Shown here: positions 10,693-37,504 of the stretch, piece after piece | Layout: each line of letters begins with the position of its first letter | Numbering within the stretch: the first letter of the stretch is position 1 | NCBI GenBank assembly: GCA_021815315.1 | Contig: JAKAHB010000005.1 | Location: forward strand, 1 to 37,504 | Direction of reading: 5' to 3' | Source of the DNA: a bacterium | GTDB taxonomy: Bacteria; Patescibacteriota; Minisyncoccia; Portnoybacterales; JAKAHB01 | Length of the DNA: 37,504 bases | Program-made: the position numbers and the translations under genes | The notes under the pieces: model-generated | Databases searched by the model: none | What the model saw: only the letters and a program-made list of their open reading frames with translations | What the model was told of the DNA's origin: nothing

Positions 10693-10742
10693 TGTAAAGG
10701 CCGGGTCTTTACAAGTTATCCAGTAAAGACCCGGCCTTTACA
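10693..10742. repeat. 50-bp palindromic repeat, copy A
   Basis: TGTAAAGGCCGGGTCTTTAC-AAGTTATCCA-GTAAAGACCCGGCCTTTACA: perfect 20-bp inverted arms, 10-nt loop. Recurs at 17923-17972 in reverse complement, partial at 22970-23000. Confidence 0.95.
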
Positions 10743-17922: not shown

Positions 17923-17972
17923 AGTAAAGGCCGGGTCTTTACTGGATAACTTGTAAAGACCCGGCCTTTACA
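17923..17972. repeat. 50-bp palindromic repeat, copy B (inverted relative to copy A)
   Basis: AGTAAAGGCCGGGTCTTTAC-TGGATAACTT-GTAAAGACCCGGCCTTTACA; 49/50 identical to the reverse complement of copy A. Confidence 0.95.
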
Positions 17973-36839: not shown

Positions 36840-37504
36840 AAGGTAGACATTAAGGGCGTATGGTGGATGCCTTGACACAAGAAGGCGATGAAGGACGTTG
36901 TGTGCCTGCGATAAGCCTCGGGGAGGTGGCTAACAACCTATGAACCGGGGATTTCCGAATGGGGAAACCTTACGATGGTAAAGCATCGTAGCTGTGTTTT
37001 AAAAACACGGAGCGCACCCGCTGAAGTGAAACATCTCAGTAAGCGGAGGAAAGGAAAACAAATGTTATTCCCCCAGTAGCGGCGAGCGAAAAGGGAGAAG
37101 CCCAAACCCTTTGATGCTTCGCATCGGGAATGTCAAAATCCTAATTTCTAATTTCCAAAAAATCTTTAATATCAAATGTCTAATTTTTCATTTGTTATTT
37201 GCCTTTGATTGGAAATTGGTAATTGGAAATTGGTAATTCCGCTGCGAAGTAGCGGAGGGGGTTGTAAGGCGATAACGTTTTGGGGCAACCCAAAGGGAGT
37301 CTATAAGATAAGTGCTGCCTAGGAGAATCGTCCTGGAAAGGCGAACCAAAGAGGGTGAAAGTCCCGTAAACGAAAGGCCATTTATGCTCCTAGTTATTGT
37401 TCTTGAGTACGGCGAGGCATGAAAACCTTGTCGGAATCCGCCAGAACTATCTGGCAAGGCTAAATACTTCTTGTGATCGATAGTGAACCAGTACCGTGAG
37501 GGAA
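36840..37504 (+). rRNA. 23S ribosomal RNA, 5' part (truncated by window end)
   Basis: Conserved 23S segments: ATGGTGGATGCCTTGACA, GATGAAGGACG, GATTTCCGAATGGGGAAACC, GTGAAACATCTCAGTA, CCCAGTAGCGGCGAGCGAA, AAGGCTAAATACTTCTTGTGATCGATAGTGAACCAGTACCGTGAGGGAA. Confidence 0.97.
37127..37238 (+). repeat. AT-rich inverted-repeat insertion inside 23S rRNA
   Basis: CTAATTTCTAATTTCCAA (37141-37158) is complementary, with one mismatch and G-U pairs, to TTGGAAATTGGTAATTGG (37209-37226); 14-nt tandem unit GGAAATTGGTAATT x2 (37211-37238). Confidence 0.8.

Follow-up and report, generated by a model that had tools for sequence, protein, structure and literature searches.

Intervening sequences (IVSs) in bacterial 23S rRNA have terminal repeats of a length comparable to those described here, carry an S23p ORF within the loop, and are excised by RNase III (PMC4990558). 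The origin, spread, and function of these sequences and of their protein have been unclear since 1990 (PMC4990558). For CPR bacteria, Tsurumaki et al. 2024 (PMC11270868) recorded both short 23S inserts of <200 bp and inserts encoding the IVS protein (IVP), which they treat as uncharacterised or as probable IVSs; the main-text results and methods of that paper draw no tie to dispersed repeats or in-frame copies. A second related system is that of the Rickettsia palindromic elements (RPEs), palindromic repeats of ~100–150 bp that a reduced genome carries as in-frame insertions in core genes unrelated to one another, with empty orthologues (PMC10969869). A search of the open-access literature turned up neither palindromic elements nor in-frame repeats described from CPR bacteria.

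The window analyzed here is a whole stretch of 37,504 nucleotides from a genome (designated G000) of the Portnoybacterales, an uncultured order of very small CPR bacteria, and its 3′ end carries the beginning of a 23S rRNA gene with an insert. The features of this region are as follows.

36840–37504, + strand: 5′ part of the 23S rRNA gene (RF02541, 358 bits, model positions 1–511), truncated by the contig end
37107–37128, + strand: 5′ strand of the rRNA hairpin that hosts the insert (probable H15), predicted to pair with 37239–37260 and near-identical in genome G019
37129–37238, + strand: inserted ORF-less palindromic element of 110 nt, whose end points are shared by dispersed copies
37129–37158, + strand: left arm, heptamers AATGTCA-AAATCCT-AATTTCT-AATTTCC followed by AA (sequence, BLAST match boundaries, and lag-7 periodicity)
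37173–37194, + strand: inner CAAATG/CATTTG stem-loop (predicted fold)
37209–37238, + strand: right arm, TTGG plus AAATTGG/TAATTGG heptamers (sequence; the 14-nt TRF unit equals two heptamers)
37239–37260, + strand: 3′ strand of the host hairpin (probable H15; fold predictions and comparison with G019)

Alignment to RF02541 places ~130 surplus bases in the loop of a model hairpin (positions ~274–291), between CCAAACC and GGGGTTGT, and so bears out the first-pass annotation, which had recognized surplus sequence in a 23S hairpin. In that annotation, the insert lay "around helix 16", but the alignment puts it in the preceding helix, a long hairpin immediately 5′ of helix 16 that is bounded by the conserved AGCCCAAACC and GGGGTTGTAAGG and that we take to be helix 15 (H15) in the usual 23S numbering. 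The H15 hairpin is absent from Escherichia coli and short in Bacillus subtilis. The two separate mini-hairpins described earlier do not appear in the folds, where the GC-rich flanks GATGCTTCGCATC and CCGCTGCGAAGTAGCGG pair with each other to form the rRNA stem. Because these flanks are mutually paired and G019, a member of another family, has nearly identical ones, they are assigned to the rRNA. The host strands 37107–37128 and 37239–37260 are predicted to pair both with and without the insert. The complete hairpin has a predicted folding energy of -62.8 kcal/mol (z = -5.8), a value equaled by none of 200 shuffles, and the insert folded alone has z = -4.6. No Rfam intron model, group I or group II, matches the window at its gathering threshold.

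The AT-rich inverted repeat noted earlier is indeed a palindrome, but it is larger than the 18-bp arms then proposed, each arm being ~30 bp and consisting of four heptamers; the insert has a lag-7 self-match of 0.61. The 14-nt tandem duplication is present (37208–37238, 2.2 copies by TRF) and belongs to the heptamer array, and the inner stem is formed by CAAATG at 37173–37178 and CATTTG at 37189–37194, as previously described. The cyanobacterial heptanucleotide repeats (STRR) are also tandem heptamers, some of them within RNase P RNA. The element resembles them in its heptamers and in its location in a structured RNA hairpin but differs in that its heptamers form inverted arms and in having IVP-bearing relatives. 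The folds show terminal inverted repeats with a long stem. The S23p/IVP ORF is absent from the 110-nt copy and present in arm-sharing relatives elsewhere; its absence does not exclude membership of the IVSs because short ORF-less IVSs occur in other bacteria. As in the IVSs with S23p/IVP of Coxiella burnetii (H45; PMC4990558) and Leptospira, the insert lies in a variable 23S hairpin, the terminal inverted repeats of ~28–30 bp form one stem with a long duplex suited to RNase III, and the full form has a PF05635 ORF between the arms. In contrast to the classical IVSs of H9, H25, and H45, it occupies a new helix, before H16, lacks an ORF, has arms built of heptamers that recur genome-wide and in protein genes, and its excision is a prediction. 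From this analysis, the insert probably behaves as an IVS of the RNase III type.

A BLAST search of the 656 kb of the G000 genome outside the 23S fragment gave 25 HSPs with the insert at E<0.01, compared with a mean of 0.4 and a maximum of 4 for 200 dinucleotide shuffles of the insert, although the arms are AT-rich and of low complexity, which inflates weak matches. Matches occur in 22 of the 23 genomes of the order, with fixed ends, and positions 37129 and 37238 are the recurrent start and end of matches elsewhere. The H15 insert of G006 can be aligned over its entire length with about a dozen intergenic copies, the best of which (G006:C11:48974–49114) is 80% identical over 138 nt (E 1.7e-28), and an arm of the 23S insert of G016 is identical at 34 of 34 positions to two other places in that genome. 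The insert therefore does have copies elsewhere in its own genome, and these, the spread through the order, the absence of the insert from sister species, and the end-to-end match in G006 support the suggestion of the first-pass annotation that an intergenic repeat of a CPR type invaded the rRNA. That reading missed that several of the 23S hairpins, and genes for core proteins too, have been hit, and that full-size relatives flank the gene of the 23S intervening-sequence protein. We consider it likely that a mobile palindromic element with inverted-heptamer arms, whose complete form encloses a 23S_rRNA_IVP (S23p, PF05635) gene, gave rise to the 23S insert as one of its copies without an ORF, and that this copy has survived at a permissive site where it is probably either cut by RNase III or retained as a spike.

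Other palindromes are present in the G000 genome. One of them, GC-rich and REP-like (CTTGTAAAGGCCGGGTCTTTACAAG, commonly with GTTATCC at its end), is found at ~17 places, including 10697–10738, 17927–17968, and 22977 in the window, and three REP-like copies (G000:C12:15366–16148) flank the sole Y1 transposase (RAYT) gene of the genome, at C12:15629–15913; the GC-rich palindrome and the Y1 gene constitute a REP/RAYT pair, here in a CPR bacterium. A perfect palindrome of 36 bp (TTTGTATTTTCCACGCATATGCGTGGAAAATACAAA), which may be an operator or an element, occupies four intergenic places (L111 7060 and 7941, L116 19686, and L126 4095, in C8, C18, and C14). The presence of a Y1_Tnp gene in G000 would suit a REP-type element mobilized by RAYT, but this explanation of the insert is already contradicted and has almost no credibility, since the palindrome flanking that gene is the different, GC-rich one, and RAYT was rejected as the mover on the absence of Y1_Tnp from the palindrome-rich genomes G006, G012, and G022.

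The 5′ domain of the 23S rRNA was read in 14 genomes of the order. Inserts at the H15 apex are present in seven of these (G000, G006, G007, G009, G010, G017, and G019), which span three families; the predicted folds show that they always lengthen H15 co-axially. G008, G011, G014, and G021 have a short hairpin at the apex and are empty, and G002 aligns poorly at this position. The insert is thus not conserved in all relatives, and the filled G007 and the empty G021 belong to one genus. G016 and G022 have element-like inserts in domain I hairpins other than H15, and G006 has a second insert in another domain I hairpin. For further inserts, at model positions ~224–229 in G014, G008, and G010, no dispersed copies could be recognized convincingly in the respective genome. 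In G016, another 23S hairpin (G016:C82:10982–11077, L287) contains a second, unrelated dispersed repeat (CCACTGATTAACGCTGATT...) with copies at C32, C74, and C108.

This distribution bears on the possibility that H15 underwent an ancestral expansion that was vertically inherited and turned AT-rich, its likeness to intergenic sequences being low-complexity convergence. Such a history would account for the use of one apex in three families and for the alignment of the G000 and G019 cores (score 33 versus a shuffle maximum of 23); it is largely refuted by the empty sites in the same-genus G021 and several other genomes, by the 80% identity of the G006 insert to an intergenic copy over the full length of the insert, and by the inserts of other species in different 23S hairpins, and we regard it as very improbable. 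Part of the H15 pattern may nonetheless be old and inherited because the G000 and G019 inserts can still be aligned with each other. Seven 23S inserts are a small sample, and the fact that neither a target-site duplication nor an exact empty DNA site is established for the 23S insert counts against the mobile-element explanation.

PF05635 genes occur in 22 of the 23 genomes of the order, about 70 genes in all; 14 control genomes have none. The only genome of the order without an IVP gene, G015, also has no palindrome matches, and the numbers of IVP genes and palindromes are correlated (Spearman 0.60, p = 0.003, uncorrected for descent). Inverted repeats scoring ≥20 flank the IVP gene at 16 of 27 loci in the order, as compared with 3.1% when the flanks are shuffled and 1.3% at 625 control ORFs. 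The same fraction, 16 of 27 IVP loci versus 1.5% of shuffles, was obtained for an independent set drawn from further families of the class. The IVP flanks have a 7-base period (a lag-7 peak) that is absent from control flanks, the heptamer word differing from locus to locus; the analysis ignored locus orientation, which dilutes the signal and does not create it. The IVP genes at G006:C25, G012:C28, and G016:C9 are enclosed by arms whose sequence is of the type found in the ORF-less palindromes, and at these loci the left arm ends, on its inner side, at the IVP start codon. In G006, the arms of IVP-bearing and ORF-less copies match at 88% over 54 nt. The IVP-gene arms in G000 are only loosely similar to the 23S insert (C11:343–401, E 0.02), which counts against the mobile-element explanation. 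The IVP copies at the ends of contigs C8 and C11 of G000 are 98% identical and may be separate elements or strain variants of a single locus. One IVP of G000 matches the solved S23p-type structure 2rld and, weakly, 2gsc, and IVP is homologous to Avd of diversity-generating retroelements (PMC10053308); a nucleic-acid role is therefore plausible.

A dispersed repeat unconnected to IVP, either an STRR-like product of heptamer slippage or a MITE-like palindrome spread by an unknown route, could also have given rise to the insert, with the IVP genes just sharing repeat-rich spacers. A genome-wide scan for the heptamer pattern shows that TTGGWAATT arrays are frequent in cyanobacteria and other phyla and rarely near IVP (2 of 119 loci in other phyla, among the matches listed), which also counts against the mobile-element explanation, and several unrelated short repeats occupy the permissive loop of RsmA. 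Such a repeat is unlikely to be the source, as inverted arms are far commoner at IVP flanks than at control ORFs in two independent sets, the IVP flanks are heptad-phased, and the two kinds of arm in G006 match.

One-armed forms of the element (AATTTCC ×4 and a second heptamer array) are present in frame in PheT, TsaD, GltX, RsmA, and MiaB of relatives, and also in DnaG, a P-type ATPase, and glycosyltransferases, the DnaG and P-type ATPase being putative identities named by reading the sequence. Filled and empty orthologues exist for the core genes with one-armed copies; in PheT, for example, an insert of ~20 residues in G014 is absent from G012, of the same genus, and from others. The TsaD and PheT peptides correspond to gaps in PDB alignments, and the gap for the GltX peptide is less clean. 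The in-frame insertion in unrelated protein genes and the empty orthologues recall the RPEs, but the coding copies here are one-armed, copies are also found in 23S rRNA, and relatives carry an IVP gene. That the coding copies are one-armed and not palindromic counts against the mobile-element explanation. The RsmA/KsgA loop is filled by differing repeat-like peptides, such as FPISNFQFP, FLRKQESRAWIPGQTRDD, and LCKRGIKGDL, in 8 of 10 genomes of the order and is empty in 2 (L319–L328); it is a protein parallel to H15. In G000, a protein of >1500 residues with a LamG-like domain (C11; L061 381–5000) has at least four clear in-frame related repeats (GNFQLPISNAKSNSNDSMSN) as linkers.

In the mobile-element explanation, copies would land mainly in intergenic DNA, and those in genes would survive only at permissive places, namely the variable tips of rRNA hairpins and in-frame protein loops. 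Folding of the ribosome would be tolerated at the 23S site because the arms extend the H15 stem into a single long hairpin. RNase III, which is encoded at G000:C16:1082–1468, would probably cut the precursor in the long duplex, as in classical IVSs, to give a nicked 23S rRNA; alternatively, the hairpin would be retained as a spike. IVP, alone or with an unknown enzyme, may drive the spread, and ORF-less copies may arise by internal deletion.

The IVP genes described here are thus located outside rRNA and enclosed by paired arms, and palindromes that share these arms but have no ORF occur in rRNA, spacers, and core proteins, with empty counterparts in sister genomes; this makes the mobile-element hypothesis directly testable. 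For CPR bacteria as a whole, we lean, if only slightly, toward the view that PF05635 genes are the signature of a mobile element whose arms are inverted and heptad-phased; its offspring without an ORF would colonize spacers, protein loops where the reading frame is kept, and hairpins of rRNA, and the classical IVSs would be its rRNA-resident fraction. Such an element is a possible source of many of the uncharacterised short rRNA inserts of CPR bacteria.
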